From NCBI RefSeq assembly GCF_003313335.1, contig NZ_QMHP01000001.1:186001-250000 (forward strand): a DNA stretch of 64,000 nucleotides, in the 5' to 3' direction. This document shows positions 22,160 through 38,195 of the stretch, piece by piece. This DNA comes from Pedobacter zeaxanthinifaciens (GTDB lineage Bacteria; Bacteroidota; Bacteroidia; Sphingobacteriales; Sphingobacteriaceae). A program made the position numbers and the translations under genes. Below the pieces are notes generated by a model that searched no databases, was not told the DNA's origin, and was given only the letters and a program-made list of their open reading frames with translations. Numbering within the stretch: position 1 is the stretch's first letter; every line of letters starts with the position of its first letter.

Positions 22160-22579
22160 TTATATTCCAAGCGAACCAGAATATTTGCTCAAAAGTTCTT
22201 TTAACTCGTTGGGATAGAGCGGTTTTTTAAGTAGCTTAATTACAAGCGGGTTAGCTTCTGCTTTTTTGATGTCGCCAAAATCCAGTGTTGAAGACAAAAT
22301 GGCGAGTTTGCAAGTGTCAAGGAAGGCTTTTGGAAATTTCTTATAGATTTCTAAAAATTCAAAACCATCCATTTCAGGCATTTGGATATCCAATAAAATA
22401 AAATCAGGCCACTGTTCAGGATTGCTTAGGTTTTTATTGATGTAAGCAAGTCCTTCTTCGCCCGATTGGCAAGAAATAATCTCATCGAAAAAACCAGATA
22501 AGTTGATGATCCTATAATGTATCTTTAAATCAATCTCATTGTCATCAATCAGCAGCACTTTTCCTGTTCTATTTGGCAT
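22160..22579 (-). CDS. Stand-alone receiver, last gene of the Rv1355c-type signalling operon
   Basis: The 139-residue protein is a CheY-like receiver with acidic DDNEID, phospho-acceptor D64 in ILLDIQMPEMDGFEF, and the lysine in LLKKPLYP. There is no output domain. Its start overlaps the end of the receiver-kinase gene by 11 bases, so the two are co-translated. It is probably phosphorylated by one of the two kinases upstream and passes the signal by binding a partner that cannot be identified from this window. Confidence 0.92.
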   Translation of the reverse strand: MPNRTGKVLLIDDNEIDLKIHYRIINLSGFFDEIISCQSGEEGLAYINKNLSNPEQWPDFILLDIQMPEMDGFEFLEIYKKFPKAFLDTCKLAILSSTLDFGDIKKAEANPLVIKLLKKPLYPNELKELLSKYSGSLGI

Positions 22580-23651
22580 TGGGTATTGTTATTTTAAAGG
22601 TGGTACCATTTTCTATATTTGAGCTTACGTTAATATTTCCGTTAATTTTATTCAATGCTTCTTTAACAATAAATAGGCCTAAACCGCTTCCGTGGTGCAT
22701 TTTGCTTTTGAAAAACTGAGTAAATATTTTTTCCAAATGCTCCTTAAGGATGCCCATACCGTTGTCGTTAATTTCTATTTGCGCTTCATGTTCATCCACT
22801 TCTATGTGAATATTAACGGTTTTATTGGGTTCGTTAGTCTTTTGATATTTAATGGCGTTGGATATCAGGTTGCTAAGGATGACCTCAATTCTAAACGCAT
22901 CCCCAATAAACCTTACATTTTGGTTGATACTAACGTTAAAGTTGGTGTCTTTGTCCGAAAAACCATGTAGTTCAACCAGTTCGTTAACAATGGTAGCAAA
23001 ATTAATCTCGCTATGGTCGGGCACATCTTTAGCGTTTTTATAGTACTGCAGCGTTTTCTGGATATAGTAATCAAGTTTGTTGGAACAGGTTTCTATTAAT
23101 CCCCAATACTCGCCACTGGAGTCGTACAAACCTTCCATTTTAACCAAGTTGATGATACCTATCACTGAAACCAATGGTGCTCTTAACTCATGCGAAATAC
23201 TATAAATAAAACGGTTAAGCTCATCATTGGTTTTCTGCAGCTCAACCATCTTGTTGCGTAAATCTATTTTCGCTCTGTAAGCGTCGTAGGCATTTTTTAT
23301 TGAGTTGTGAAGTTCCAAATCATTCCAGGGCTTGGTAATGTACCTGTAAATATCCCCATGGTTAATGGCATCAGCTAAGGCTTCAATATCCGTATATCCA
23401 GTAAGTAAAATACGGATAGGATCGGGGTGGGTATCTACAATGCTCCTAAAAAATTCCACACCCGTAGTGTTGGGCATTTTCTGATCGGCAATGATCACAT
23501 GAACATCAATGTTTTGAAGTATGAGCAAACCCTCTGCCGCCGAAATAGCGGTATAGATTTCGTACATACGCCTAAAACTAGCACGGAAAGCCTGAAGGTT
23601 ATTTTCCTCATCATCTATGTATAAGACGCGTACGGTAGGAGTGCTCATCAT
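22569..23651 (-). CDS. Receiver-histidine kinase hybrid, cytoplasmic
   Basis: The 360-residue protein has an N-terminal receiver (D56 in IIADQKMPNTTGVEF, KPW motif near 108). A short coiled coil and a HisKA domain follow, with H154 in SISHELRAPL, then a HATPase with NLISNAIKYQ, DNGMGI and GSGLGLFIV. It lacks membrane segments and a sensor domain, so it takes its input through the receiver, probably from the 7TMR kinase encoded 8 bases upstream. The receiver closely resembles the divergent receiver at 28929-29384. A second ATG lies one codon downstream. Confidence 0.94.
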   Translation of the reverse strand: MMSTPTVRVLYIDDEENNLQAFRASFRRMYEIYTAISAAEGLLILQNIDVHVIIADQKMPNTTGVEFFRSIVDTHPDPIRILLTGYTDIEALADAINHGDIYRYITKPWNDLELHNSIKNAYDAYRAKIDLRNKMVELQKTNDELNRFIYSISHELRAPLVSVIGIINLVKMEGLYDSSGEYWGLIETCSNKLDYYIQKTLQYYKNAKDVPDHSEINFATIVNELVELHGFSDKDTNFNVSINQNVRFIGDAFRIEVILSNLISNAIKYQKTNEPNKTVNIHIEVDEHEAQIEINDNGMGILKEHLEKIFTQFFKSKMHHGSGLGLFIVKEALNKINGNINVSSNIENGTTFKITIPNAK

Positions 23652-23659
23652 AATGTTAG

Positions 23660-25780
23660 TTATGGTATATTTACATGCAAGGTAATAATAAATTCAGTAC
23701 CTTTTCCAACTTCAGAAACAACTTCTATATGTCCTTTGTGTTTTTCAATGATACTAAACACAATAGACAAACCTAATCCTGTGCCTTCCCCAATATCCTT
23801 GGTAGTGAAAAATGGTTCAAAGATGCGATGTTTCACTTCTTCGCTCATGCCCGTACCGCTATCCTTAATGCTAATGAAAACTTGTTGGCTATCATACCAA
23901 CTGCGTATAGTTAAAAATTCTTCTTGGGCCTGTACTTCTTTACTCTTTATAGCCTGCACCGCATTAGAAACCAAATTCATAAATACTTGGTTAATTTTGC
24001 CTGGCATGCACTCTACCTTTGGTAAGTTCCCTAGGTCTTTAATTACCACCAAATTGTCGGGTAGGGTATTTCTAATTAACACCAAAGTAGATAACAGCCC
24101 TTCGTTAAGGTCAATGGCTTTCATATCGGTTTCATCCACACGGCTGAAATTCCTTAAACTCCTAATAATTTCTGCTGTACGCTTCGCTCCCTCGCTAATA
24201 CCAGAAAGTAATGAAGTAATTTCGTTGTTGATAAAGCCTAAGTCAATCTGTCGTTTATAGGCATCAATTTCATCAAACTGTTTTTTAATATCACCTTCAA
24301 AATCAATCTTTTCATATTTGCTAATGATGTCTTTCAAATCGTCGATATCCAATTGCAGTGGCTTCACATTCGAAGTAACAAAATTAATTGGGTTGTTGAT
24401 TTCGTGTGCAATACCCGCCGTAAGCTGACCAAGAGCCGCCATTTTTTCGGCATCTACTAGTTGCGACTGTGTTGATTTCAGATTGTTAAGCGTTTCGTTT
24501 AGCGTGGTATTTGCATTTTCGAGTTCTTCCGTACGTTCTCTAACTTTTTTCTCTAATATGATATTTTGTTCCTTAATTAACTTCTGGTTTTCTAAAGATG
24601 CATTCAAGGCTTGCACCTGTGCCGTTTCATTTTCTTTCTTGAAGTAATTAATTTTATCCGCCAAAGCAAACGAGAGCAACATTACTTCAATTGCTGATGA
24701 TAATTGGAGTAAATATGTGGTAAACGTATTGTAAGGCATAATGCCGTAGTCTTTTAACACAAATAGAATTGCTCCAACAAGTAAAATCGACCAGGCTAAA
24801 AGATAGAAGCCTGCGGGTTTAAAATGTTTCTTGAAATACACATAGTAGGAGGCATACATGGCAATACCAGCTCCAAGCAGCGTAAGTATTTGCATTAAAA
24901 TGAAAGTGGCCGTGCTACCAATTACTAGCAATGCACCAATACTGATTACTACCAAAATCAAATAAACCTTGAATAGCTTATGTGAAAATGGTGAGAAAAG
25001 TTTGGTGTTTAAAAATGAAATGGTAAACAAGCAGGCAAATACTAAGCCCAGCAACGAATACAGCACCACAGAGTTTTGATTCATGAAGGAATCTGCTTCC
25101 CACATATACCTACGCCCGTAGCCTTGTATTGAAATTTGAGCTAACCAGGTGAAAAGGATATAGAAAACGTAAAAAATATAGCTTCTGTCGCGTACAACGA
25201 TGAATAAGAATAAGTTGTATACGAACATTACGAGCATTATACCGGTATAAATACCAAAAATGATATCTCTTAATGCATGCTTTTCAAGTAATTCGTATTC
25301 TTTTTTTACAGAAATTTTAGTGATGAAAACCTCGTGTGGCCTTAATCTGAGATACAGTACATCGCTTTTATTTAACAATTTTGGTAATAGGAATGAAAAA
25401 CCTTGACTGTTTTTTGCCGTACCATTGTTATACAAATCGAAAGACCTGATCAGCGAATCTTTTTGTCCAAATCTTTTTAAATATAACTTCGCTAGCTGAA
25501 ATCTAGCTTGATCAATAGTTAACAATTCATTCTTGAAACCAAGAACGTTGTTGGGTACAAGCTTTATCCAATAAGTATGGTCACTCGTGCCAAAATTGAG
25601 TATTTCTGTTTTTATTTCGGTAAAAGGAGAGTTAACAATTTGTTCAAAGGTTTTTGAATTGCTCTTATCTTCCAGGTAATATGTTTTAAACAAGCTTTGA
25701 GTGCTGCGCTCAGCAAAGCAAATGCTGCTGTAAAAAAGCGCTATACTTAAAAATAGGTATCTGATTATGGCTTGCTTCAT
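23660..25780 (-). CDS. 7TMR-DISM sensor histidine kinase
   Basis: The 706-residue protein has a signal peptide (to about residue 22) and a periplasmic 7TMR-DISM extracellular domain (about 30-170, with TYWIKLVPNN and FLLPKLLNKSDVLYLRLRPHE). Seven transmembrane helices lie at about 180-380, followed by a long coiled coil, a HisKA domain with H459 in GIAHEINNPINF, and a HATPase ending in GEGTGLGLSIV. DISM extracellular domains resemble carbohydrate-binding folds and bind small ligands. The gene overlaps the upstream acyltransferase gene by 4 bases (ATGA). Sensing the product of the upstream enzymes is a hypothesis based on this coupling. Confidence 0.95.
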   Translation of the reverse strand: MKQAIIRYLFLSIALFYSSICFAERSTQSLFKTYYLEDKSNSKTFEQIVNSPFTEIKTEILNFGTSDHTYWIKLVPNNVLGFKNELLTIDQARFQLAKLYLKRFGQKDSLIRSFDLYNNGTAKNSQGFSFLLPKLLNKSDVLYLRLRPHEVFITKISVKKEYELLEKHALRDIIFGIYTGIMLVMFVYNLFLFIVVRDRSYIFYVFYILFTWLAQISIQGYGRRYMWEADSFMNQNSVVLYSLLGLVFACLFTISFLNTKLFSPFSHKLFKVYLILVVISIGALLVIGSTATFILMQILTLLGAGIAMYASYYVYFKKHFKPAGFYLLAWSILLVGAILFVLKDYGIMPYNTFTTYLLQLSSAIEVMLLSFALADKINYFKKENETAQVQALNASLENQKLIKEQNIILEKKVRERTEELENANTTLNETLNNLKSTQSQLVDAEKMAALGQLTAGIAHEINNPINFVTSNVKPLQLDIDDLKDIISKYEKIDFEGDIKKQFDEIDAYKRQIDLGFINNEITSLLSGISEGAKRTAEIIRSLRNFSRVDETDMKAIDLNEGLLSTLVLIRNTLPDNLVVIKDLGNLPKVECMPGKINQVFMNLVSNAVQAIKSKEVQAQEEFLTIRSWYDSQQVFISIKDSGTGMSEEVKHRIFEPFFTTKDIGEGTGLGLSIVFSIIEKHKGHIEVVSEVGKGTEFIITLHVNIP

Positions 25781-26493
25781 ATTCTTGATAGGTCAAAGAC
25801 GAGTGTAACATCGGTGCCAATTTTTGATACTACCTGTTTGGTTTGGACAATGTCGTTTCTCATGGTTAGAATATTTGTTTTTTCAGGTTCGAGCGCCAAA
25901 GGTAAATTTACGATATCGTGGTTAAACATCACAGTGGCCGTCATATCGTCTTTAGGATAGTAGAATTTGCCGTTGTTTCCAAGTTCCTTTACAGGTTCAA
26001 ATCCGCCACGTACTACATTTCGGTAAGTAGCAGGAGCAGCAAGGCCAAATAATGTTTTAAGGTTCATAAATTGGGCATAAGCTACACAGGCTGTACTCAG
26101 GTGATTGCTACCTACGCCTAAACCAGCAACTTCAAACGAGTTCCAAACACCTGCAACTTCACCAGTTCCGCCGTCGGTATAGTCGTCAACCATTTGATAA
26201 ATTTTTTCATCCATGTAGCCAACCGCATCTTCAATTGGAAGTCTGTTGATACGATTTGCCCTATGAATTCTTCCGCCACCAACAGCTTTTCCAGTATCTC
26301 CATCGGTTACCAGCATAACATAAACGTCGGGGTTCAGTATCCAGTCGGCTTTTGCGGAAGTAATTTGGGTAATTCCGAAAATTTCCAATACCCGTCGGTG
26401 GCCATCCATAAAATTAATACAAGCTTCTCTATCATCAATAGCTCTAAAGGCTGTAAAATTGATGCGCTTTATTTCTGAGTTATGCCCTTCCAA
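25777..26493 (-). CDS. GNAT-fold acyltransferase, autoinducer/N-acyl amino acid synthase-like
   Basis: About 238 residues from a TTG at 26493. The frame stays open to an ATG at 26598, but that would overlap the upstream gene by 119 bases, and the extra residues look like translated overlap. No ATG lies nearer before residue 27 (FMDGHRRV). The core FRAIDDREACINFMDGHRRVLEIFGI, then YVMLVTDGDTGKAVGGGRIHRA and a final VVRGGFEPV segment, recall LuxI-type and FeeM-type enzymes that move an acyl group from acyl carrier protein to an amine. That assignment is by pattern and is moderate. It sits between the Rv1355c-like enzyme and the 7TMR kinase. Confidence 0.8.
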   Translation of the reverse strand: MEGHNSEIKRINFTAFRAIDDREACINFMDGHRRVLEIFGITQITSAKADWILNPDVYVMLVTDGDTGKAVGGGRIHRANRINRLPIEDAVGYMDEKIYQMVDDYTDGGTGEVAGVWNSFEVAGLGVGSNHLSTACVAYAQFMNLKTLFGLAAPATYRNVVRGGFEPVKELGNNGKFYYPKDDMTATVMFNHDIVNLPLALEPEKTNILTMRNDIVQTKQVVSKIGTDVTLVFDLSRI

Positions 26494-28810
26494 TGGAGAA
26501 AATTTTATCGTTTGACTTTCTGATGGTTTTTTCTGGAGATGCGCTAGCCTTAAAAATTCTAAACATAAACATAGAAACAGAATTTTCAGGCTTGTCAAAT
26601 ATAAGATTAAACTCGTTTTCTGCGTTGGTTAAATACAACTTTCTTTCTTCGGATAAAGTTGCGCTTTTTTCTACAGTATTTTTATAGAAAAATAAAAGAG
26701 GGACATTAACCGGGTGGATTTGAAAATCTGATGCAGTGGCGCCTAACCACATTTTTTCAGCTGCTATGCCACACTTGATCCAAGATTGCACCTCGTTGTT
26801 TGGCATACAAATTAATCCAATTGCCGATGAACTCATGAACTGTTGCGTTAGCAATCTTCCAAACGCACCGCCGCCTTTTATCTGTTCCAAAAAGCTAATC
26901 ATCCGTTTGTCTTGTAGGAGCCTAATTCCGTATTGGTCGTTAATTCCTAAATCGAGTGTATGTATGCCAATACCGTCCTCAGTTTTAGCAACCTCATCAG
27001 GTGTCCAGCGCATTTCTTTTACAATGAAATCTTCATGCGCTTGCGGAATAAACATCCTAAACAAATCGGTAGTGGTCGCTATTTCTGAAAGCCTTTTTAT
27101 CTTTGCCGCATCTTGGATAAATGTAAGCGATGCGCCTTCGGTTTGTTCAACTAAACCACAAAGGTAAGCCATTTCTTCGTTTGAAATTTCAGTACGCGGA
27201 GGGCTTTTCCTGTTCGTATGCCTAAGTGGGATTTGTTTTTCTAGCAACTTCTGCTCTTCCGTAGCTTCTGCTCCATCAGTGAAGGTGAAAATAGCGAGGT
27301 GTTTCGGCGCAAATTGCGGCGTTAGTTTCCAATGCACTTCTAGTTTTTGTACACTAGCTGCCAACAATAAATTTTCAATGGCTGCACCTATGGAAGTATA
27401 GGACGAAATAAATTGCGGATCTAAATAGGCAGCGGCTGTATTTTCATCTAAAAATAAATGCAGTTTCTTATCTTGATAATGCCAACGCCAAGGTTGGTTA
27501 TTGCCTCCTGACGGTGCTTTTTTAACCGCATCAATAAGGTAGTAAATCTGCTCATCGTTTAATTGCTTTGCTGCAGCTAAGTCTAAGTCTTCAAATTGAT
27601 GCTCACTAACGAAATTGATGATATCAGAAGCACTTAGTGGTGGGGCAGTGTGTGTTTCTGTAATACTGTTATTTTCCTCCTCTGGATTTGTAATCATTTC
27701 ATCTAAATCCAAGAAATATCTTCCTGAAACTTTAAGTGTGTTAAGGAGGATTTTTCTTGACAAATCTGCACTAACGCCACCGCCAAACGTTACTGCACTT
27801 GCTAGCTGTGGCCATGTTGATATAGAGCTCATCAACTCAACCGCCGAAGCTTTCATACGGGGTGAAAGTGTTTCGAACCCTGTTACGGCCGCAATGTAAG
27901 GTACTTTTTCATCGAAGGTTTTGAGATGTTTGAACTTGCTCATGTCCAAATGGTCAACCATTCCGTGTAAAATTGGCCGATTGGGTTCTAGGTCAAAACG
28001 CTCAATGTCAATTGTGCCTCTGTCGCTGCCTTCCATCAATACTGGTATTTGAAGGTTTCTGGCAGCCTCTCTGGCACTTATTTTAATGTCAAAGCTGTCA
28101 CACTCATCAATAAGTAAATCGAGTTTTCCATTCTCGGTTAAAAAAGATTGGATGTTATCATCAGTAATGCCTTCATCAAAACATACGACATTTAAAAATG
28201 GATCAATTTCTGCAATTTCTCTTGCTACAATAACCGTTTTTTTAACGCCTATATTTTGTACACCAGTTCTTATTCTGTTGATGTTACTTAAGTCTAATTC
28301 ATCAAAATCAGCAATGCGGAGTTCGCCAAAACCGCGTTCCATAGCCAAAGTAAGTGAAACTGATTGTCCCACGGAAAGTCCTATAACGCCAATTTTTTTG
28401 GTTGATAAGAGCTCTTGCTCGTCTTGAGTTATTTTATGCTTGTTGCGATTGGTCCTAACTGTAATGAATTCTTCTTGATCTAAGATATGGACCAGCTTAT
28501 TTGCCCAAGGGTAATATACCCATACGCCGTATTCGTTGCTGTTGCCGATTTTTTCTATTGCCATTTTTTCAAGCTCTGCCTTGGGAAGCATTGCGTTTAA
28601 TGGCTTAGTACATTTGATAAGTTCGGTAACTTGATTTTTTATCGTGTCGAAAACCTGTAAATTATCAGCTTTTGATAGGAGGTTGTTAAATGTAGTTTTA
28701 TCGTCACTGTTCGACAGTCTCAGTATAACCGGTTTATAAAGATTCTGTGTTTCTTTTGTTTGGATGATTAGAGCGTTCAGGTGAGAGCTTACAGCGTCTG
28801 TGGTATACAT
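26480..28810 (-). CDS. Rv1355c-family protein: E1-like ThiF domain fused to nitroreductase
   Basis: The 776-residue protein has an N-terminal region of about 130 residues, then a ThiF/E1-type nucleotide-binding domain (GVIGLSVGQSVSLTLAMERG, the ADFDELDLSNINR motif with its conserved Arg, and LLIDECDSFDIK). A nitroreductase-like domain follows from about residue 400 (KKAPSGGNNQPWRW for FMN, LRHTNRKSPP, then GLICMPNNEVQSWIKCG). The glycine loop reads GLSVGQ instead of the canonical GxGxxG. E1 domains adenylate a carboxylate; nitroreductases do FMN redox chemistry. Together they suggest a modified small molecule. It is the first gene of a five-gene operon. Confidence 0.92.
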   Translation of the reverse strand: MYTTDAVSSHLNALIIQTKETQNLYKPVILRLSNSDDKTTFNNLLSKADNLQVFDTIKNQVTELIKCTKPLNAMLPKAELEKMAIEKIGNSNEYGVWVYYPWANKLVHILDQEEFITVRTNRNKHKITQDEQELLSTKKIGVIGLSVGQSVSLTLAMERGFGELRIADFDELDLSNINRIRTGVQNIGVKKTVIVAREIAEIDPFLNVVCFDEGITDDNIQSFLTENGKLDLLIDECDSFDIKISAREAARNLQIPVLMEGSDRGTIDIERFDLEPNRPILHGMVDHLDMSKFKHLKTFDEKVPYIAAVTGFETLSPRMKASAVELMSSISTWPQLASAVTFGGGVSADLSRKILLNTLKVSGRYFLDLDEMITNPEEENNSITETHTAPPLSASDIINFVSEHQFEDLDLAAAKQLNDEQIYYLIDAVKKAPSGGNNQPWRWHYQDKKLHLFLDENTAAAYLDPQFISSYTSIGAAIENLLLAASVQKLEVHWKLTPQFAPKHLAIFTFTDGAEATEEQKLLEKQIPLRHTNRKSPPRTEISNEEMAYLCGLVEQTEGASLTFIQDAAKIKRLSEIATTTDLFRMFIPQAHEDFIVKEMRWTPDEVAKTEDGIGIHTLDLGINDQYGIRLLQDKRMISFLEQIKGGGAFGRLLTQQFMSSSAIGLICMPNNEVQSWIKCGIAAEKMWLGATASDFQIHPVNVPLLFFYKNTVEKSATLSEERKLYLTNAENEFNLIFDKPENSVSMFMFRIFKASASPEKTIRKSNDKIFSIGRA

Positions 28811-28928
28811 TTTCGTATTCTAAAGATGAATTTTTCGGCATAAAAAGTGGTTTTCCATAGTTAAAACACTAAATTAGTTTTTTAGAATTACAATAAAAAA
28901 GTATTTTTAACTTTTTATTACTTGAAAA

Positions 28929-29384
28929 ATGACAGCGAATATCCTTTACGTTGATGATGAACCACATAATTTAAGTGCCTTTGCGGCTACTTTTCGTAGA
29001 TTGTATAAAGTTTTTACAGCAGAGTCTGCTGATGAGGGCAGGAAAATTTTAGATACAGAAGATATACAGGTGGTAATTACCGACCAACGCATGCCTAAAA
29101 CCACTGGTGTAGAGTTTTTAGCTTCGATATTAGAGAACCACCCTGATCCCATTAGAATGATTTTAACGGGTTATACGGATATAGATGCTGTAATTGACGC
29201 AATTAACAAAGGTCAAGTTTATCGTTACATTCAAAAACCTTGGATGGAGGAAGATTTACGTATTAATATAGACAAGGCTATCGAGATTTATACGCTCAGA
29301 AAAGAAAATAGAGAACTTACTGAAAAGCTTTTAGTTGCCAACCAGCAGTTAGAGTTTATCGCTCGTCAAAATCTATTATCTTAG
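28929..29384 (+). CDS. Receiver protein, paralogue of the operon hybrid's receiver
   Basis: The 151-residue protein is a receiver (VDDE, D52 in VVITDQRMPKTTGVEF, KPW near 108) with a C-terminal helix (about 120-151) and no further output. It is divergent from the Rv1355c-like gene by 118 bases. Its receiver shares long motifs with the one at 22569-23651, such as TTGVEF, HPDPIR, LTGYTDI, DAIN and YRYI-KPW, so the two are duplicates or partners in one pathway. It may be a regulated single-domain output; no DNA-binding domain is present. Confidence 0.92.
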   Translation: MTANILYVDDEPHNLSAFAATFRRLYKVFTAESADEGRKILDTEDIQVVITDQRMPKTTGVEFLASILENHPDPIRMILTGYTDIDAVIDAINKGQVYRYIQKPWMEEDLRINIDKAIEIYTLRKENRELTEKLLVANQQLEFIARQNLLS

Positions 29385-29513: not shown

Positions 29514-32500
29514 ATGAAAAACAGATTTCTGCTCATTGTATTAGGCTATTTTCTTTTGGTCAATGCACACCTTTTTGCACAAAGCACTTCTAATAAAGGC
29601 ACCGATTTTTGGGTGGCTTATACTGGCCACATTGATGGCTTGAATTCTAGGATGACTTTGTTCCTATCATCCGATGTAAATACTACCTATCAAGTTAAAT
29701 CTGGTAACGTGGTAATTTCAAGTGGGTCAATAACTGCAAATGTGGTTAAGCCTGTCTTTATTGATCCAACGATATACAGTGTTTATATTGGTAGCTCGGA
29801 TATCCTAGAAAGCAATAAAGGGATTAATGTCACCAGTGCTAGTGCAATTTCACTTTACTGCGTAATATCAAACAACGCTCGTACAGGCTCAACCTTGGTG
29901 TTGCCAACTTCGGCCTTAGAGCAAGAATATTATGTTTTTTCGCAACAAAACACAGGTAGTAGTAACCAGGCTGTCTATTCGGAGTTTACCATAGTAGGCA
30001 TTAAAGATGGGACTACGGTAGAAATTACTCCAACTCAGAATAACCGGAACGGCACAAGAGCAGCCAATACAAAATTCAATATTACATTAAACAAAGGGGA
30101 CGTTTATCAGTATCAGGCAATCAATGATTTAACAGGTAGCCAGGTGAAATCAATAAGCGGTTGTTCGCCCGTGGCAGTTTTTTCTGGTAACTCTTGGGCT
30201 GCATATTGCGAAGCAGGCAATTCACGCGTTGCAGCGGGTAGCTTTAGTCCAAATGGCGGTGATAACCTGTTTCAGCAGTTATTTCCCGTAACTGCTTGGG
30301 GACGTAATTTTGTATCGGCACCTTTTTATAATACGCTTAACGGCAATACTGATGTCATTAAGATTATTGTTGCAGAAGATAATACCACGGTTACTGTAAA
30401 CGGCAGTACTACCGTCGCTAATGGCACGGCTTTATTAAATCCATATAGAAAAGGTAGTGTCATCACTTTTTACAGTACATCGCCAAATGTAATAAAGGCA
30501 AGTCTACCGATAGCGGTTGCGCAATATCAGACATCTCAAAATTGTAACCTAAACAATGCTGCTACTTCGGGTCAGGGAGGCCCTTATCTTGGAGATCCAG
30601 AGATGACTATCCTAAATCCAATTGAGCAAACTTTGAAAGATATTGCTGTTTATTCTAAGCTGAACAGCGTTACTGGGGTAAATACTAATATTTCTAAATA
30701 TTACCTCAATATCATTATCAAAACAGTGGATATTGCGGGATTTACGCTTGATGGAGCTACCATTGTTAGTCAATTTATGCCAATTGCTGATGGCGAATAC
30801 AGTTATGCTGTGGTGGATGTAACTAATTCTGGAGATCAACATCGGTTGATAGCGAGTGGTGGTTTTGTGGCTATAGCTTACGGCTATGGGCTGGTGGAAT
30901 CGTACGCTTACTTAGCCGGAACAGATTTAAAGAACTTAAAAAGTAATATCCAGGTATTTTCAAAAGGAAGCAGTATCGCATCCACTAATTTTTGTTTGGG
31001 CACTAATTTTGATTTTGTTTTACAACTTCCTTATGTTACCGATAAAATAACGTGGACACTCAATAACGGTGCTAAAGTTGATATAGTGAATACGCCTTCT
31101 TATACCACAAAAGTGGAAGACGGACAGACATTTTACCTTTACAACTACTCACTTTCTTCGGCATTTTTCCCAAATTCAGGAAACTACGTATTGAAAGCGT
31201 TAATTCAAAAGCCCACAGCGGCAATCTGTGCAAACGACGAAGAGCTATTCACCACATTCGATGTGTTTTCACCTAATTTCACATCACAATCAGAAGCTTG
31301 TGTAAATACAGATGTTCAATTCACAGACTCGTCGCCGCGTACTGGGGGAAATATTAAAACGTGGAGTTGGGACTTTGGCGATGGTGTAATAGATAACAAT
31401 CAGAATCCAAAGCATAAATTTTCAACCCCGGGCGTAAAAACAGTTAAACTTACTGTTACTACAGATTTAGGCTGTAATTTAACTGCTACAAAAACATTAA
31501 CGGTCATTACAGCTCCTAAATCAGCTTTTACTGCTGTAGGTCCGTTCTGTCCGGGGGCAACTATTCAATTTAATAATGAAAGTACCTTTGTAAACTCGAA
31601 TATTGTAAGTAGAGTCTGGGATTTTGGAAATGGTGCGCCAACATCCACCGCTGTATCTCCGACTGCCGTTTATACCACCGCCGGCACATATAACGTAAAA
31701 TTAATTTCTACCTCTTCAAGCGGTTGTGCTGATACATTAATAAAGGCAATTACCATTTATGAGATACCGGAAGTTACGTTTAATGATCCTGGTTCGTGTG
31801 TTAATGACGTGGTAGCATATCAAGGAGTAGCAGTTAAGGGTACAATTACTTCTTGGCTGTGGGATTTTGGGGATGGTACCAACGACATATCTCAAAAATC
31901 TTTGCAGAACCCGAATCACAAATATACTGCTCCGGGAACTTACACAGTTAAATTAACCGCAAGTTCTGATAAAGGTTGTCCGGTGACTTTCTCCAAACAG
32001 ATTTTAATTAGTGGTAGTAATCCAAATCCAATATTCGAGGTTAAAAATGCGAACACGAAATTATGTGCCGCTGTAGATGTTAGCTTTGAAAATAAAAGCA
32101 CCATTGGTTTTGGAAATATTACTAAACTAGAATGGATATTTGACTATAAAGTTGGAGGCGCCAATACTGTCGAAGTTGATAATGCACCTACTTTCGGAAA
32201 AATTTACACACATCAATTCCCGAATGCAGCCAGCATCACAAACTATAAAGTGGTGCTACGTGCTTATTCCGGTCAGCAATGTGTTGTTGAGTCGGCTCCG
32301 GTTACAGTAACCATTTATCCAGCGCCAATTTTAAAGTTCGACGCCATTACCTCGTTATGCGAAAATGATAATCCAGTGCAGTTAATAGCGGTTGATGAAA
32401 ATAGTTTAGCTGGTAATTTTGTGTTTTCGGGAACAGGCGTTACTTCAAATGGCATCTTTAGTCCACGCGTTGCAGGCCCAGGTAATTTTAATATTAAATG

Positions 32501-33056
32501 TACTTACAATGCCAATGGTTGTACAGCCGAAAAGAATATTAATATCACGGTAGATAAATTACCTGTTGTAACTATGCCGCCGGATATGGATATTTTACAA
32601 GGCGGGCAAAAACAAATCGCTGCATCGGCTACTGGGGCTAACTTAAAGTTTAAGTGGTCGCCATCTGAAGGGTTGAGCGCCGACGACATCATTGATCCGA
32701 TTGCCAAACCTACCAAAACAACTAAGTATACTTTAACTATAACTTCAAATAGTTGTGATGTGGTTTATGAATACTTAGTAACCGTACATGAAGAACCAGT
32801 TATCCCTAACGTATTTAGCCCTAATGGCGATGGTAAAAATGATACTTGGAATATTAAGTATTTAGAGACACTCCCAAATGGAATAATTACTATATTTAAC
32901 AGGTACGGACAGAAGGTGTTTAATGCTTCCCCGTATAACACTCCTTGGGATGGACGATTTAATGGTACAGATGTTCCTGTGGGTGTTTATTATTACATTA
33001 TAGAACCGAACAACGGAAAGAAAAAATACACAGGATCGCTCACCGTCTTAAGATGA
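29514..33056 (+). CDS. Giant IgGFc-binding/PKD surface protein with type IX secretion C-terminal domain
   Basis: The 1180-residue protein has a signal peptide, then a region of about 450 residues beginning SNKGTDFWVAY that matches the IgGFc-binding-type fold (STLVLPTSALEQEYYVFSQQ). PKD repeats follow (WSWDFGDG, RVWDFGNG, WLWDFGDG, with a fourth degenerate unit) and an Ig-like unit. It ends in a gliding-motility-type C-terminal domain (NVFSPNGDGKNDTWNI, VPVGVYYYIIEP). Such domains direct type IX secretion through a PorP/SprF partner. The stop overlaps the next gene by 4 bases. A surface adhesin role is inferred. Confidence 0.93.
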   Translation: MKNRFLLIVLGYFLLVNAHLFAQSTSNKGTDFWVAYTGHIDGLNSRMTLFLSSDVNTTYQVKSGNVVISSGSITANVVKPVFIDPTIYSVYIGSSDILESNKGINVTSASAISLYCVISNNARTGSTLVLPTSALEQEYYVFSQQNTGSSNQAVYSEFTIVGIKDGTTVEITPTQNNRNGTRAANTKFNITLNKGDVYQYQAINDLTGSQVKSISGCSPVAVFSGNSWAAYCEAGNSRVAAGSFSPNGGDNLFQQLFPVTAWGRNFVSAPFYNTLNGNTDVIKIIVAEDNTTVTVNGSTTVANGTALLNPYRKGSVITFYSTSPNVIKASLPIAVAQYQTSQNCNLNNAATSGQGGPYLGDPEMTILNPIEQTLKDIAVYSKLNSVTGVNTNISKYYLNIIIKTVDIAGFTLDGATIVSQFMPIADGEYSYAVVDVTNSGDQHRLIASGGFVAIAYGYGLVESYAYLAGTDLKNLKSNIQVFSKGSSIASTNFCLGTNFDFVLQLPYVTDKITWTLNNGAKVDIVNTPSYTTKVEDGQTFYLYNYSLSSAFFPNSGNYVLKALIQKPTAAICANDEELFTTFDVFSPNFTSQSEACVNTDVQFTDSSPRTGGNIKTWSWDFGDGVIDNNQNPKHKFSTPGVKTVKLTVTTDLGCNLTATKTLTVITAPKSAFTAVGPFCPGATIQFNNESTFVNSNIVSRVWDFGNGAPTSTAVSPTAVYTTAGTYNVKLISTSSSGCADTLIKAITIYEIPEVTFNDPGSCVNDVVAYQGVAVKGTITSWLWDFGDGTNDISQKSLQNPNHKYTAPGTYTVKLTASSDKGCPVTFSKQILISGSNPNPIFEVKNANTKLCAAVDVSFENKSTIGFGNITKLEWIFDYKVGGANTVEVDNAPTFGKIYTHQFPNAASITNYKVVLRAYSGQQCVVESAPVTVTIYPAPILKFDAITSLCENDNPVQLIAVDENSLAGNFVFSGTGVTSNGIFSPRVAGPGNFNIKCTYNANGCTAEKNINITVDKLPVVTMPPDMDILQGGQKQIAASATGANLKFKWSPSEGLSADDIIDPIAKPTKTTKYTLTITSNSCDVVYEYLVTVHEEPVIPNVFSPNGDGKNDTWNIKYLETLPNGIITIFNRYGQKVFNASPYNTPWDGRFNGTDVPVGVYYYIIEPNNGKKKYTGSLTVLR

Positions 33057-34021
33057 TACGTTTAGGATTTATTATTGGTATATTATTTTGTACGAACATA
33101 GTTTTCGCTCAGCAAAGACCACATTATTCGCAATATCTACAAAATATGTCGGTAATTAATCCTGCTGTTACGGGTTTAAATCAGGGAATGGACTTACGAC
33201 TTGGCATTAGAAACCAATGGCAAGGTTTAAAGGATGCTCCTAAAACTGGCTATGTGACGTTTAGCATGCCTGTTTCTTTTGGTGGAGATATGGCTAACTA
33301 CAGAGCAAGTGATTTGGGAGTTCCAGAGCCTGCTACAAAAGATGATATGTTTGACTACACTGCTTCAATGCCACATCATGCTTTTGGAGTATTGTTTTTG
33401 AACGATAAAACTGGCCCGTTAAATAGAATTACCGCTAATTTAACTTATGCCTACCATTTGGCACTTGGCGACAGAGCAAACATTTCAGTTGGCATTGGAG
33501 TAGGAGGAAGTAGGTTAGGCATCAATTCTTCGAGCTTGTTGTTTGAGGAAGAAGGAGATCCCACCGTGGGAGGCTCTGGTGAAATTAACAAATATGTACC
33601 TGATTTAAATGCTGGCCTATATTTTTACGGACCAACTTTTTACGTAGGTGCTTCTATGCAACAAATTATAAAAAATAAAATTGCTTTTGATGGTGATTTT
33701 AATGTAGGTAAGGAAGTTGCTCACTATTTTTTAACGGTTGGAAATAAATTTTGGATTAATAATGATTTTTCGGTTACTCCATCTGTTATGCTTAAAGTAG
33801 TTAATCCACTACCTAAAGCATTCGACCTTAATTTAAAATTCGCCTACAGAAATAATTTTTGGATTGGCGGAGGATATAGAAAAAATGATGCTTTTTTTGG
33901 TAACTTAGGCTTTAATGTTGCTAATACTGTTGGGGTAGGATATGCTTACGATTATACTACCTCAGAATTAAATACTGTTTCGACCGGATCACATGAAATA
34001 ACCTTGAGAGCTTTGTTTTAA
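33053..34021 (+). CDS. PorP/SprF family outer membrane protein
   Basis: The 322-residue protein has a signal peptide ending at FAQQRP. The PorP/SprF hallmark start is YSQYLQNMSVINPAVTGLNQ, followed by RNQWQGLKDAPKTGYVTF and a beta-barrel rich in aromatic strands. It ends in an aromatic residue (RALF), as outer membrane barrels do. Family members partner with type IX secreted proteins that carry the gliding-type C-terminal domain, as SprF does for SprB. The start overlaps the giant adhesin stop (ATGA), pairing the two. A second copy of the cassette follows at 34032. Confidence 0.95.
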   Translation: MIRLGFIIGILFCTNIVFAQQRPHYSQYLQNMSVINPAVTGLNQGMDLRLGIRNQWQGLKDAPKTGYVTFSMPVSFGGDMANYRASDLGVPEPATKDDMFDYTASMPHHAFGVLFLNDKTGPLNRITANLTYAYHLALGDRANISVGIGVGGSRLGINSSSLLFEEEGDPTVGGSGEINKYVPDLNAGLYFYGPTFYVGASMQQIIKNKIAFDGDFNVGKEVAHYFLTVGNKFWINNDFSVTPSVMLKVVNPLPKAFDLNLKFAYRNNFWIGGGYRKNDAFFGNLGFNVANTVGVGYAYDYTTSELNTVSTGSHEITLRALF

Positions 34022-34031
34022 ATATTAATTA

Positions 34032-37000
34032 GTGCCTATGAAAGTCTACCTATCTTTCGCACTCTCACTTTTTTGCTTTTTGTCCAACGTCAGCGCCCAA
34101 GGAACTTCTAATAAAGGCACTGATTTTTGGCTTATGTACGGAGCGCATGTATCTAGCTACTCGGGAAATAGCCCGCAGAAGATGTCTATTTATGTAACTT
34201 CAGACGTTTCTACCACGGGTAAATTGGATATTCCGGGCATTAGTTATACAACTAATTTTTCTGTTAACGCCAATCAGGTTACGGTAGTTGATATTCCTCT
34301 CGCCGCCTATGTGGGTGGTACAGAAGGCAAATTTAACAAGGGAATGCATCTTACCTCGGTAAAACCTATCGTCGCTTATGCGCATATTTACGATTCTTCT
34401 GTTTCGGGAGCCACGTTAGTACTTCCCACTAATACCTTGGGTAAGGATTATTACTCGCTCAACTTTACTCAAAAATCAAATTCGTTAAATGCCTATAGTT
34501 TTTGTTCTATTGTAGCTGTTGAGGATAATACCCAAGTGAATATTACACCGTCTGTGCCTACACAAGGTGGCTGGCCAGCGGGTGTACAACAAACTATTAA
34601 TCTTAATAAAGGCGAAGTATATCAAATATTGGGCTTAGAGAATTCTAGGGTTGATTTGAATCCAAATGGAGCTCAAAGAAATTGGTCAACAACAGGTGGC
34701 GACTTAACAGGTACAATTATTAAGTCGGTTGCAGCAAATGGTCAGTCGTGTAAAAAAATCGCAGTGTTTTCCGGTAGTACTAAAATATCTATCAGTTGCG
34801 TTGCTACTTCTCCGGGTTCTGCAGATAATCTTTTCCAACAAGTTTATCCAACCGCTACTTGGGGTAAGTCATTTATAACGGTTCCTTCAAAAAATAGGAA
34901 TTACGATATCTACAGAATCTTTAAAAGTAATCCGTCGGCAGTGGTGAAACTTAATGGGACAGTTATTCCAAGCGCTAATTTTGTTAATAACTTTTACTAT
35001 GAATTTGCAAGCCAAAACACAAACTTTATTGAAAGTGATAATTCCATACAAGTTGCTCAGTATCAAGTAACCCAAGGTAGAACAATTAATTGCACAACTT
35101 TTCAGACCGATGTTGGCGATCCTGAAATGATTTACCTTAATCCACTTGAACAAACGCTGGATAAGATTACAATGTATTCAAGCTCCTTTTTTGCAATTAC
35201 AGCCCATTACATCAACGTAGTTATTAAAACAAGTGATGCGCCTAGTTTTACGTTGGACGGCGTAGCCAAAGGGGCTAGTTTTGTTCCTGTGCCACAAAAG
35301 ACTGGTTATTCTTTTGCTCAGTTAAATGTTACTTCCGGTACGCATACGCTGCAGGCTAATGGCGGTTTTAATGCCATAGCGTACGGTTTCGGTAATGCCG
35401 AGTCATACGGTTATGCTGCCGGAGCAAGTTTAATTTCGCCCGGCATCGAAGTTTTTAACGGAAGTTTAAATGCTGCTAATAAAAAAAATATGGGCTGCGT
35501 AAACGCTACGTATGATGTTTACGTTTCCCTGCCTTATCAACCTTTATCGATCAAAATAGATATTGATAATGGTCAGCCAGCTGCTAATGTTCCTTTGCAG
35601 TTAACAGATACCTACACTAATAACGATATTCTTTACTATAGATATAAAGTGTATGATCAAATTAGCTTCGCAACCGCCAAAAAATATGTAGTAAAAGTAA
35701 CGGCCGAAAAACCCATATCTGACGGATGTGGTGCGGTTGATGAACTTGAATTAGAATACGAAATTTTAGATAATCCAAGTTCGCAGTTTGACATTTCGGC
35801 TGGAGCTACTTGTGAAGACAAAGCAGTTACCTTTACTGATAAAAGCCTTGCTAACGGAAATACAATTGTAAAATGGTACTGGGATTTTGGTGACGGAAAA
35901 AATGAAGTGAGAACTAGTGCAACGCCTTTTACACATAGCTATGTTCCTGGCAACTATTCCGCAAAATTACTTGTAGAGAATCAATCTGGATGTTTATCAG
36001 AAGCGATAACGAAAGATATTAAAGTTTACAACTTGCCAAATCCTACTTTTTCAACTACAATGCCCTTATGCGAAAGTCAAAGGGTAAGGTTTATTGATCA
36101 ATCTACATCTGTTGATGGCACAATTACAGCCTGGCTGTGGGATTTTGGAGATGGTCAAACCTCAACAGAGGCTAGCCCTGCCCATACATTCTCCGGTGCT
36201 GGCAATTACGCCATAAAATTAACAGTAACCACTCAAAATGGATGTGAAAAAAGTATTGTAAAAAATTTATCCATCAGCCCTTCACCTATATTAGATTTTG
36301 AGTTGCCCGACTTATGTTTGGCTGATGCAAAAGCAACGTTTATCAATAAAACTACTATTTCTGATAATAGTGTATTGAGTTATGTTTGGGATTTCGGCGA
36401 TTATTTAGCGTCTCCGGCACACCCTAATGTGTCGTCGGCGGTTAATGGCCAACATGTGTATACCGCAGTAGGGATTTATCAGGTAACGCTAACAGTTACT
36501 ACAGTAAATGGCTGTGTTAGCGTCATAAAAAAACAATTTCGAGTAAATGGTAGCATTCCTAAAGCTGGTTTCGAAGTAGTTAATCAATCTAATTTGTGTA
36601 GTAACGCTCCGGTTAGTTTTTTGGATAAAGCAACAGTTGATTTTGGTGAAATAACCAGAATTGAATGGTATTTTGACTTCGCAAACAAAACTACCCCCGA
36701 TATAGTTGATGACAATCCGCAGGTAAGAAGTGCAAATTCGCAATCCTATTTGTTTAAATATCCAACCTTTAGTAATTCGCCTAGCAAAACTTATTTAGTT
36801 AAGATGGTGGTTTATTCGGGAGGTTCATGTGTTAGCGAAGAAGTCAAATCTATTACCATTTATCCAGAAGCTGTAGTTGATTTTTCTTTAGAGTCTTCGT
36901 GTTTAAAAAACGGTACGGCTGTGTTCAATAATACTTCATCATATATCAATAATAATGCTACTTTAACCTATAAATGGGATTTTGGAGATCCTGATGCCAA

Positions 37001-38195
37001 TGCTCAAAATCCAAATACTTCTAGTGCTAAAGTGGGTGAACACAATTACATCAAGGCGGGGAGGTATACCGTAAGCTTAACGGTAACTACGCCTTTAGGC
37101 TGTGATAAAACCATCACGAAAGAAATTGTTGTTGATGGTGCTCTTCCCGTTGCTGATTTCACGGTGCTAAGTCCTGATGTATTATGCGTGCAGTCTCCAG
37201 TACGTTTTGAAGACAACACGAGCATTATTTTTGGGAACATCACTAAAATTGAATGGTATTACGATTTTGCAAATAATCCAAGCCAAGTAGTAGTCGATAA
37301 TTCACCAGGAACAAGTACCAACCCTAAAATCTATAGTCATCAATATCCAATATTTAGCACGCCGCTTACCAAAACTTATACGGTAAAAATGGTTGCCTAC
37401 TCTGGAAATACTTGTGTATCTACGGTAGAAAAAACAATCACATTAAACGCAATGCCTGAAATTGATTTCACGGCGATAGCTGAAATTTGTTTGGAAGCGC
37501 CAGAAATTCAACTAACCGCACAAGAAAAAAATGGGATAAACGGCACTGGCATATTTAGCGGAAAAGGTGTTAGCGCTAACGGTATATTCAATCCTTCATT
37601 AGCGGGCATCGGCTCACACGACATTACTTATACCTTTTCTTCCGAAGGTGGTTGTAGTGTTCAGGCTACACAAAAAATTACCGTTAACCCTACACCTATA
37701 GTTGATGCAGGTGAAGATAGAATGGTGCTGGAAGGCGGACAAATTAGACTTAATGCTACGGCCACCGGTGCTGCTAACTTAACCTACAAATGGACACCCT
37801 CTCTCGGCTTAGATAGAGACGACGTGTTAAATCCAATAGTAAAACCTACCGATGATATGATGTATACACTTACCGTGAAAAGTGACAAAGGATGTACGCA
37901 GTCCGATGTTGTTTTTGTTAAATTACTGCGTAACTTAGATATTCCTTCTGCAATTACGCCAAATGGCGACCAAGTTAACGATGTATGGAATATCAAATAT
38001 TTGGATAGCTATCCTTCCGTAAAAGTGGATATTTACGATAGGACCGGACAAAAGGTATTTGAAAGCAAAGGCTATCAAACACCTTTTGATGGAACTTATA
38101 AAGGTAATCAGTTGCCGGTTGGAGTTTATTACTATATTATCAACTTAGTTGGTTATGGCAAGCCAATAACTGGAACATTAACAATCATCAAATGA
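34032..38195 (+). CDS. Second giant IgGFc-binding/PKD surface protein with type IX C-terminal domain
   Basis: The 1387-residue protein is a longer relative of the 1180-residue one. Signal peptide, SNKGTDFWLMYG, an IgGFc-binding-like N-terminal region, then alternating PKD units (WYWDFGDG, WLWDFGDG, YVWDFGDY, YKWDFGDP) and degenerate EWYFDFAN or EWYYDFAN units. It ends in SAITPNGDQVNDVWNI and LPVGVYYYIINL. The extra length comes from more PKD-type repeats. The start lies 10 bases after the first porP/sprF gene, and the stop overlaps the second by 4 bases. All four genes probably form one transcript. Confidence 0.93.
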   Translation: MPMKVYLSFALSLFCFLSNVSAQGTSNKGTDFWLMYGAHVSSYSGNSPQKMSIYVTSDVSTTGKLDIPGISYTTNFSVNANQVTVVDIPLAAYVGGTEGKFNKGMHLTSVKPIVAYAHIYDSSVSGATLVLPTNTLGKDYYSLNFTQKSNSLNAYSFCSIVAVEDNTQVNITPSVPTQGGWPAGVQQTINLNKGEVYQILGLENSRVDLNPNGAQRNWSTTGGDLTGTIIKSVAANGQSCKKIAVFSGSTKISISCVATSPGSADNLFQQVYPTATWGKSFITVPSKNRNYDIYRIFKSNPSAVVKLNGTVIPSANFVNNFYYEFASQNTNFIESDNSIQVAQYQVTQGRTINCTTFQTDVGDPEMIYLNPLEQTLDKITMYSSSFFAITAHYINVVIKTSDAPSFTLDGVAKGASFVPVPQKTGYSFAQLNVTSGTHTLQANGGFNAIAYGFGNAESYGYAAGASLISPGIEVFNGSLNAANKKNMGCVNATYDVYVSLPYQPLSIKIDIDNGQPAANVPLQLTDTYTNNDILYYRYKVYDQISFATAKKYVVKVTAEKPISDGCGAVDELELEYEILDNPSSQFDISAGATCEDKAVTFTDKSLANGNTIVKWYWDFGDGKNEVRTSATPFTHSYVPGNYSAKLLVENQSGCLSEAITKDIKVYNLPNPTFSTTMPLCESQRVRFIDQSTSVDGTITAWLWDFGDGQTSTEASPAHTFSGAGNYAIKLTVTTQNGCEKSIVKNLSISPSPILDFELPDLCLADAKATFINKTTISDNSVLSYVWDFGDYLASPAHPNVSSAVNGQHVYTAVGIYQVTLTVTTVNGCVSVIKKQFRVNGSIPKAGFEVVNQSNLCSNAPVSFLDKATVDFGEITRIEWYFDFANKTTPDIVDDNPQVRSANSQSYLFKYPTFSNSPSKTYLVKMVVYSGGSCVSEEVKSITIYPEAVVDFSLESSCLKNGTAVFNNTSSYINNNATLTYKWDFGDPDANAQNPNTSSAKVGEHNYIKAGRYTVSLTVTTPLGCDKTITKEIVVDGALPVADFTVLSPDVLCVQSPVRFEDNTSIIFGNITKIEWYYDFANNPSQVVVDNSPGTSTNPKIYSHQYPIFSTPLTKTYTVKMVAYSGNTCVSTVEKTITLNAMPEIDFTAIAEICLEAPEIQLTAQEKNGINGTGIFSGKGVSANGIFNPSLAGIGSHDITYTFSSEGGCSVQATQKITVNPTPIVDAGEDRMVLEGGQIRLNATATGAANLTYKWTPSLGLDRDDVLNPIVKPTDDMMYTLTVKSDKGCTQSDVVFVKLLRNLDIPSAITPNGDQVNDVWNIKYLDSYPSVKVDIYDRTGQKVFESKGYQTPFDGTYKGNQLPVGVYYYIINLVGYGKPITGTLTIIK

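Follow-up and report, generated by a model that had tools for sequence, protein, structure and literature searches.

Does an operon that sets two biosynthetic enzymes directly ahead of a membrane sensor kinase encode both a small molecule and the receptor that reads it? This question is raised by five genes in a 64,000-nucleotide stretch of the Pedobacter zeaxanthinifaciens genome (contig NZ_QMHP01000001.1, positions 186,001 to 250,000; hereafter the window), for which an earlier note had proposed a synthesis-and-sensing unit. Judged from sequence, the genes are likely a self-sensing, most likely a quorum-sensing, cassette that pairs a putative fatty amino-acid signal with its membrane receptor. 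What holds of the proposal is that the enzymes and the kinases form one conserved unit, in which, as we observed, the kinase changes its sensor half along with the tailoring chemistry; binding of the product by the kinase is what we infer.

The five-gene operon is genuine. It runs on the minus strand from 28810 to 22160 in the gene order first given, and neighbouring genes are as tightly spaced as described, with overlaps of 14, 4 and 11 bases and one gap of 8 bases. A sixth member, a divergent receiver, lies outside the range first reported.

26480..28810, minus strand: gene 1, a ThiF/E1-like cyclase fused to a flavin mononucleotide (FMN) nitroreductase-family oxidase (TrzS/OxzB-like; Rv1355c family), 776 amino acids (aa); by NF005901, Pfam ThiF and Nitroreductase
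25777..26493, minus strand: gene 2, an N-acyl-amino-acid synthase-like GNAT acyltransferase, 238 aa; by AlphaFold2 model and fold comparison, start by alignment
23660..25780, minus strand: gene 3, a 7TMR-DISM sensor histidine kinase, candidate receptor; by Pfam DISMED2, 7TMR-DISM_7TM and HATPase_c; 4-base overlap with gene 2
22569..23651, minus strand: gene 4, a receiver-histidine kinase (REC-HisKA-HATPase), presumed phosphorelay component; by Pfam; 8-base gap after gene 3
22160..22579, minus strand: gene 5, a stand-alone receiver without output domain; by Pfam Response_reg; 11-base overlap with gene 4
28929..29384, plus strand: divergent stand-alone receiver; by Pfam Response_reg, conserved with the cassette
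28811..28928, no strand: divergent intergenic region of 118 bases, presumed shared control region; by position only

The domains named in the earlier note are backed by Pfam and NCBIfam for every gene except gene 2, which matches neither library, and the unusual start that it remarked on is that of gene 2. The longest frame of this gene begins at TTG 26598; its start is most likely TTG 26493, which overlaps gene 1 by 14 bases, because this codon aligns with the ATG of a relative (L037).

Gene 1 connects the operon to a known chemistry, so that the earlier description of a pathway not recognisable by name is not supported. It matches NCBIfam NF005901 (the Rv1355c family) with 788 bits (cut-off 476) over residues 17-771, and genes 1 and 2 stand in the layout of the acyl-oxazolone loci OxzAB, TyzABC and TrzAS. 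A ubiquitin-like E1 or a thiamine enzyme was rejected, as the other models reach at most 206 bits. According to the available portions of the papers, Rv1355c is TrzS, which together with the N-acyltransferase TrzA produces N-acyl tryptazolones: tryptophan is N-acylated, then cyclised in an ATP-dependent and desaturated in an O2-dependent step (PMC12856293); and tyrazolones are the products of OxzAB (Pseudoalteromonas rubra) and TyzABC (PMC10404671). All 11 aligned proteins share Asp238 in the ThiF ATP motif of gene 1, and all 8 fusions share Arg585, a candidate equivalent of TrzS Arg540. By position both residues fit the catalytic residues Asp217 and Arg540 of Mycobacterium smegmatis TrzS, in an alignment that does not contain the M. 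smegmatis sequence, so that Arg540 could map elsewhere.

Gene 2 finds no match in Pfam or NCBIfam at E 0.1, LuxI-type synthase models included, and none in a PDB sequence search. Its AlphaFold2 model is confident (predicted local distance difference test score, pLDDT, 91), and the best PDB match of this model is FeeM (VIA-align Z 16.3, 182 residues, 3.1 Å). The GNAT protein 1xeb, SACOL1063, ElaA and the acyl-homoserine-lactone synthases TofI and LasI lie within 1 Z of FeeM and are hence tied with it; RpaI, BjaI and many other GNATs follow lower, and GCN5 appears in the Foldseek list. The predicted fold shows the superfamily and favours, short of proof, an N-acyl-amino-acid synthase activity. 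One relative (L151) carries a tandem pair of acyltransferase genes inside a single cassette.

The remaining genes provide a candidate receptor and its partners. Gene 3 has the composition of a 7TMR-DISM kinase (DISMED, 7TMR-DISM_7TM and histidine kinase, from Pfam and the predicted fold), with a RetS-like extracellular domain at about residues 31-160, a seven-transmembrane (7TM) part at about 161-384 and a catalytic part at about 440-706 (model pLDDT 92). The 7TM part of the model also gives weak Foldseek similarities to human Wntless and to class A/C G-protein-coupled receptors, which we leave uninterpreted. Gene 3 is not one of many alike DISM kinases, as the runner-up in its own genome scores 106 bits against 1539. 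Histidine and aspartate motifs are present in the cassette kinases and receivers, and in none of the four signalling proteins does Pfam detect a DNA-binding or cyclic-di-GMP domain for output. A receiver of the gene 5 type occurs in many relatives, though not in all, and two loci (L091 and L195) have two tandem receivers each. In two Taibaiella loci (L162, L169) the cassette lacks the receiver-kinase, and the order is acyltransferase, methyltransferase, DISM kinase and then directly the conserved receiver, which suggests that the kinase and this receiver are the minimal core.

If the kinase reads what the enzymes make, their genes should stay together. We compared 160 loci (60 from the same family, 80 named and 20 more; the sets overlap, and named and unnamed loci share genomes, such as L032 and L093). 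The named loci are the best 80 of 553 and include records of Pedobacter, Mucilaginibacter, Olivibacter, Daejeonella, Taibaiella, Algoriphagus and Owenweeksia and many metagenome-assembled genomes (MAGs); among them, the nearest relatives of gene 2 are from Pedobacter. A MAG labelled Azovibrio, a betaproteobacterium (L132), is probably mis-binned, because it shows nearly the gene row of L134, a MAG labelled Bacteroides. The gene neighbourhood seen in the window is found again across Bacteroidota, which disposes of the operon as a one-off of this genome. The DISM kinase adjoins the acyltransferase in 97 loci, lies one gene further in 59 and three or four genes off in one each, and in the remaining two only its beginning is seen, right after the acyltransferase and before the contig end; with these two, the genes stay together in 160 of 160 loci, as expected of a synthase-receptor pair. 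The kinase frame exceeds 650 aa in 153 loci and is shorter in five (L104, L109, L128, L141, L166). A receiver-kinase is found near the acyltransferase in 147 of the 160; the misses are partly contig ends and partly true, as in the two Taibaiella loci. The conservation of gene order that the earlier note had named as a check is borne out by a kinase at most four genes away in 60 of 60 same-family, 80 of 80 named and 12 of 12 phylum-sample loci, and the outcome that it said would speak against it, enzymes that mostly lack the kinases in relatives, is not seen in the Bacteroidota loci examined.

The cassette is patchily distributed. With one genome searched per species, gene 2 is present in 85 of 151 same-family genomes and in 13 of 395 genomes of the phylum sample (its own included; each of the other 12 has the kinase). 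Strong ThiF matches (>300 bits) occur in 69 of the 151 family genomes, 68 of which also have the acyltransferase, the exception lying at a contig edge. The divergent receiver, or the homologous receiver domain (REC) of the receiver-kinase, accompanies the acyltransferase in 85 of 85 positive genomes versus 3 of 66 negative ones, one of the three being the broken-contig ThiF case; because the genomes are related, the Fisher value of these counts is descriptive only.

Upon comparison of the loci, we noticed that the enzyme expected to finish the product is exchangeable. The 160 loci carry ThiF with oxidase (98), ThiF alone (32), an S-adenosylmethionine (SAM) methyltransferase (19), a flavin adenine dinucleotide (FAD) oxidase (5) or an ICMT-like methyltransferase (2), as assigned by our own profiles, position and length, with Pfam on examples; four are unassigned, their gene being cut by the contig end. 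The ICMT-like carboxyl methyltransferase, the fifth finishing enzyme (L176, L179), comes from two genera that belong to a different family within the class. The FAD oxidase has its nearest matches in 4-cresol dehydrogenase and in eugenol and vanillyl-alcohol oxidases. Because vanillyl-alcohol-oxidase-like enzymes act on 4-hydroxyphenyl groups, this resemblance suggests that tyrosine is the amino acid acylated in the FAD-oxidase loci. An N-acyl amino acid could be the substrate of all five enzyme types, of which four could cap the carboxylate. Methylation at another position is conceivable for the methyltransferases, and methyl esters are possible products of the methyltransferase-type relatives.

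If these products are read by the kinase, its sensor half should change with the finishing enzyme. From 161 loci including that of the window, 151 were usable (kinase >650 aa, type known); dropping 13 with identical acyltransferase ends left 138, a receiver-kinase is present in 132 of these, and 68 loci of the family served for the genus test. Mean pairwise identity across the 138 loci is 23% for the extracellular domain, 38% for the 7TM part, 58% for the catalytic part and 50% for gene 2, and 48% for the receiver-kinase (132 loci). On FastTree trees of the 132 loci, enzyme type changes 9 times along the 7TM tree, 14 times along the extracellular, 24 along the acyltransferase, 29 along the receiver-kinase and 32 along the kinase tree. 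Twenty bootstraps at 120 columns gave 7-13 changes for the 7TM part versus 28-35 for the kinase, and shuffled labels about 46.

Among the 68 family loci, which span 18 genera, 8 of them with more than one enzyme type, the two halves of the receptor part company. Enzyme type (minimum 3 changes) changes 5 times on the 7TM tree, 7 on the extracellular, 15 on the acyltransferase, 21 on the kinase and 19 and 21 on the trees of the receiver-kinase parts, whereas genus (minimum 17) changes 29, 31, 27, 18 and 17 and 19 times, respectively; in 40 bootstraps the type changes range from 4 to 6 for the 7TM part and from 18 to 22 for the kinase. This crossover between the 7TM and kinase trees indicates that the sensor half changes with the signal chemistry, the output half with the species. 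Poor resolution of the kinase tree does not explain it, because that tree separates the genera almost without fault. When the two ThiF types are counted as one, there are 2 changes on the 7TM versus 12 on the kinase tree, and for ThiF with versus without oxidase alone 3 and 10. For the approximately unbiased (AU) test we used quick IQ-TREE trees, in which the kinase tree gave 20 type changes instead of 21. The test agrees with the tree counts: it rejects the methyltransferase types as a single clade on the kinase tree (p 0.010), while on the 7TM tree they already form one branch with support 100. A further AU test, of genus g16, was chosen after the identities of two close pairs (L054/L189 and L057/L085) were known.

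Close relatives show where the exchange ends. At 75-80% kinase identity, 7TM identity is 51% in same-type versus 38% in different-type pairs, and at 80-90% it is 60 versus 43%; acyltransferase identity hardly differs between such pairs at equal kinase identity. In 42 close different-type pairs, identity is low until about residue 360-380, where the 7TM part ends; beyond this point it equals that of 421 same-type pairs. The ThiF locus L057 and the methyltransferase locus L085 share 86% of the receiver-kinase, 81% of the kinase and 73% of the acyltransferase, with 32% of the 7TM part and 29% of the extracellular domain; L054 (ThiF) and L189 (methyltransferase) share 90% of the acyltransferase, 74% of the kinase and 63% of the receiver-kinase, with 29% of the 7TM part. 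Eight residues are kept in methyltransferase-type but not ThiF-type sensors, seven of them within the 7TM part. Covariation of the sensor with the signal-making enzyme, the other mark of a synthase-receptor pair, is thus found at the sequence level only.

The gene content, conservation, covariation and predicted folds, which are directly established, lead us to infer a chemistry, a recognition step and a phosphotransfer, along with release of the product, density dependence and an output. The GNAT enzyme (gene 2) would join an acyl chain to an amino acid, which is probably aromatic because of the FeeM-like fold, the TrzAS/OxzAB layout and the relatives with a vanillyl-alcohol-oxidase-like finishing enzyme. 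By homology, since this chemistry is published for TrzS and OxzB, the ThiF domain would then close the carboxylate onto the amide with ATP to form an oxazolone, which the flavin domain would desaturate to a neutral, lipophilic acyl-azlactone, the predicted product. Related clusters yield dehydrotyrosine acids, and oxazolones were not detected there, as far as the available text of a study of N-acyl tyrosines indicates (PMC12479983); the end product here could therefore be such an acid. Because the 7TM part changes with the finishing enzyme, recognition would fall chiefly to the 7TM part of the adjoining DISM kinase, with the RetS-like extracellular domain perhaps helping, and the kinase would pass a phosphoryl group to the receiver-kinase and the stand-alone receivers. 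Relatives with other finishing enzymes would make saturated oxazolones or methylated or oxidised N-acyl amino acids, their receptors having exchanged the sensor half along with the finishing enzyme while the kinase half and its partners stay.

Several observations weigh against the self-sensing reading. Extracellular identity is indifferent to enzyme type even in close pairs (24.8 versus 25.8% at 75-80% kinase identity), and in distant loci (kinase identity 55-60%) the 7TM parts of same-type and different-type pairs are nearly equally similar (37.6 and 36.4%). The acyltransferase partly tracks enzyme type as well, with its 15 changes. On the 7TM tree, loci with ThiF alone and loci with the ThiF-oxidase are partly mixed, so that receptors may not always discriminate the two. 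Of 20 genomes sampled from the genus of the window, 10 lack the cassette, and the gene 2 profile matches a candidate neighbour in the TrzA position in Rhodococcus weakly (164 columns, E 0.011, probability 3.8). Above all, because the finishing gene adjoins the 5' end of the kinase gene in many loci and the flanks are conserved, recombination could shift the gene and the sensor together without functional matching; such hitch-hiking is the main doubt about the matching of enzyme and receptor.

Two other accounts have to be weighed. In the first, an oxazolone-type lipid stays in the envelope of its producer, where the DISM kinase gauges it and tunes synthesis or envelope stress, with no signalling between cells. 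In line with such a cell-autonomous lipid homeostasis, tryptazolones stay with the cells in actinobacteria, and the study that describes them ties oxazolones to stress physiology in the available part of its text (PMC12856293); moreover, the part of the receptor that follows the chemistry is the 7TM part, which is expected to see a membrane lipid. Yet repeated exchange of chemistry and sensor among close relatives is, by general reasoning, more typical of cell-cell recognition than of a housekeeping lipid, and presence in 85 of 151 genomes is patchy; we regard this account as unlikely. In the second, the operon makes a specialised metabolite, the kinase senses some other cue and merely controls the operon, and the joint exchange is hitch-hiking between conserved flanks. 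The enzyme indeed adjoins the sensor half where the order is acyltransferase, enzyme, kinase; conserved stretches of acyltransferase and kinase flank the exchanged block; the type signal fades in distant loci; and outside Bacteroidota the ThiF enzymes stand without an annotated kinase of this type in 4 of 4 plasmid loci (Rhodococcus, Mycolicibacterium, Streptomyces, Nitratidesulfovibrio; 4 of 26 PLSDB records with a match, viewed at 4-7 kb each side with incomplete gene tables). An unrelated sensor is nonetheless very improbable, given that the equally close acyltransferase follows type less (15 versus 5 changes), that within some 7TM clades a single enzyme type occurs in either gene order (33 and 4 loci; 11 and 6) and that all 19 methyltransferase-type 7TM parts, the two Taibaiella loci included, form one clade.

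Taken as a signal synthase with its receptor, the cassette resembles known systems in its parts. LuxM-LuxN and CqsA-CqsS of Vibrio likewise set a synthase gene beside a polytopic membrane histidine kinase that reads a lipophilic signal within the membrane and feeds a phosphorelay, here a presumed one; the synthase and receptor families differ, and in the Bacteroidota cassette the finishing chemistry is exchangeable. As in the ComQXPA and Agr pherotype systems, a variable synthesis-and-sensor block lies next to a conserved kinase half and regulators, with peptides as signals there and, by our prediction, acyl-amino-acid derivatives in Bacteroidota. Gene 3 shares its RetS-like extracellular fold and its DISMED2-7TM-kinase architecture with RetS/LadS sensors, which to our knowledge are not encoded with a signal synthase. 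A synthase beside a polytopic sensor kinase is thus a known kind, as LuxM/LuxN and CqsA/CqsS illustrate, and so are the pathway enzymes.

TrzAS (Mycobacterium, Rhodococcus), OxzAB and TyzABC (M. tuberculosis) have the same arrangement of a ThiF-flavin oxidase fusion (TrzS, OxzB) beside an N-acyltransferase, here a predicted one, but the Bacteroidota enzymes come with a kinase of receptor type and with receivers, whereas the available portions of the papers report no cognate kinase for the others (PMC12856293, PMC10404671). Work on N-acyl tyrosine (PMC12479983) and N-acyl alanine methyl ester (PMC11580390) shares with our cassette the predicted fold of gene 2 and possible methyl esters; a cognate receptor is not mentioned in the accessible text of either paper, in contrast to the kinase here. 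The TrzAS authors call the role of oxazolones unresolved and remark that oxazolones resemble acyl-homoserine lactones and neighbour cyclic-di-GMP genes, so that the idea of oxazolones as signals is, on the available text, also theirs (PMC12856293). For a joint exchange of finishing enzyme and sensor half with acyl amino acid or oxazolone chemistry, or for such a system in Bacteroidota, no description stands among the papers listed by our searches, several of them broad, with preprints and most subscription papers outside their scope, so that one may exist.

With somewhat less assurance than for the cassette itself, we lean towards the view that Bacteroidota own a lipid quorum-sensing family, in which N-acyl amino acids with five exchangeable finishers are read within the membrane by a matched 7TMR-DISM receptor, joint exchange creates 'dialects' and acyl-oxazolones are signals. 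Joint exchange of finishing enzyme and sensing half is how a chemical language with matched words and ears is expected to look. Oxazolones would gain a testable function if read as lipid quorum sensing of the LuxM/LuxN kind with exchangeable chemistry, and 7TMR-DISM sensors would gain a ligand class. The signal chemistries would be tied to one receptor family of soil and water bacteria, and signal finish and receptor sensor moving as one block would make a natural experiment in the divergence of a chemical language.

As for the surroundings of the operon, a scan of promoters and terminators yielded 13 promoter-like sites (20.9 in shuffles) and 6 terminator-like ones (5.0 in shuffles), and no promoter was assigned. 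Past the divergent receiver, the plus strand of the window (29514-38195) encodes a 1180-aa protein with a type IX secretion system (T9SS) type B sorting domain, a 322-aa protein that is PorP/SprF-like as judged by eye and a similar 1387-aa protein. Frames of like length, matched by length alone, occur at the corresponding place in most of the Pedobacter loci shown, as well as in L110 (labelled Flavobacteriaceae). These genes are probably chromosomal context.

A search for relatives of gene 2 on plasmids found none, and its profile matched no neighbour of the ThiF genes in plasmid loci L173 and L174. The Rhodococcus plasmid (L172, 2820-6968) carries a TrzS homologue and, two genes upstream of it, a GGDEF gene, an arrangement that echoes the cyclic-di-GMP genes beside trzAS in M. 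tuberculosis and is possibly another link between oxazolones and signalling. The Streptomyces plasmid (L173, 6929-8727) encodes a ThiF protein 43% identical to the ThiF part of gene 1, with a GNAT from a different family (Acetyltransf_3) after it; no kinase adjoins them, and a sensor/response-regulator pair lies about 5 kb downstream. On the Nitratidesulfovibrio plasmid (L175, 3083-6007), a 974-aa ThiF-family protein is encoded near PEP-CTERM proteins.

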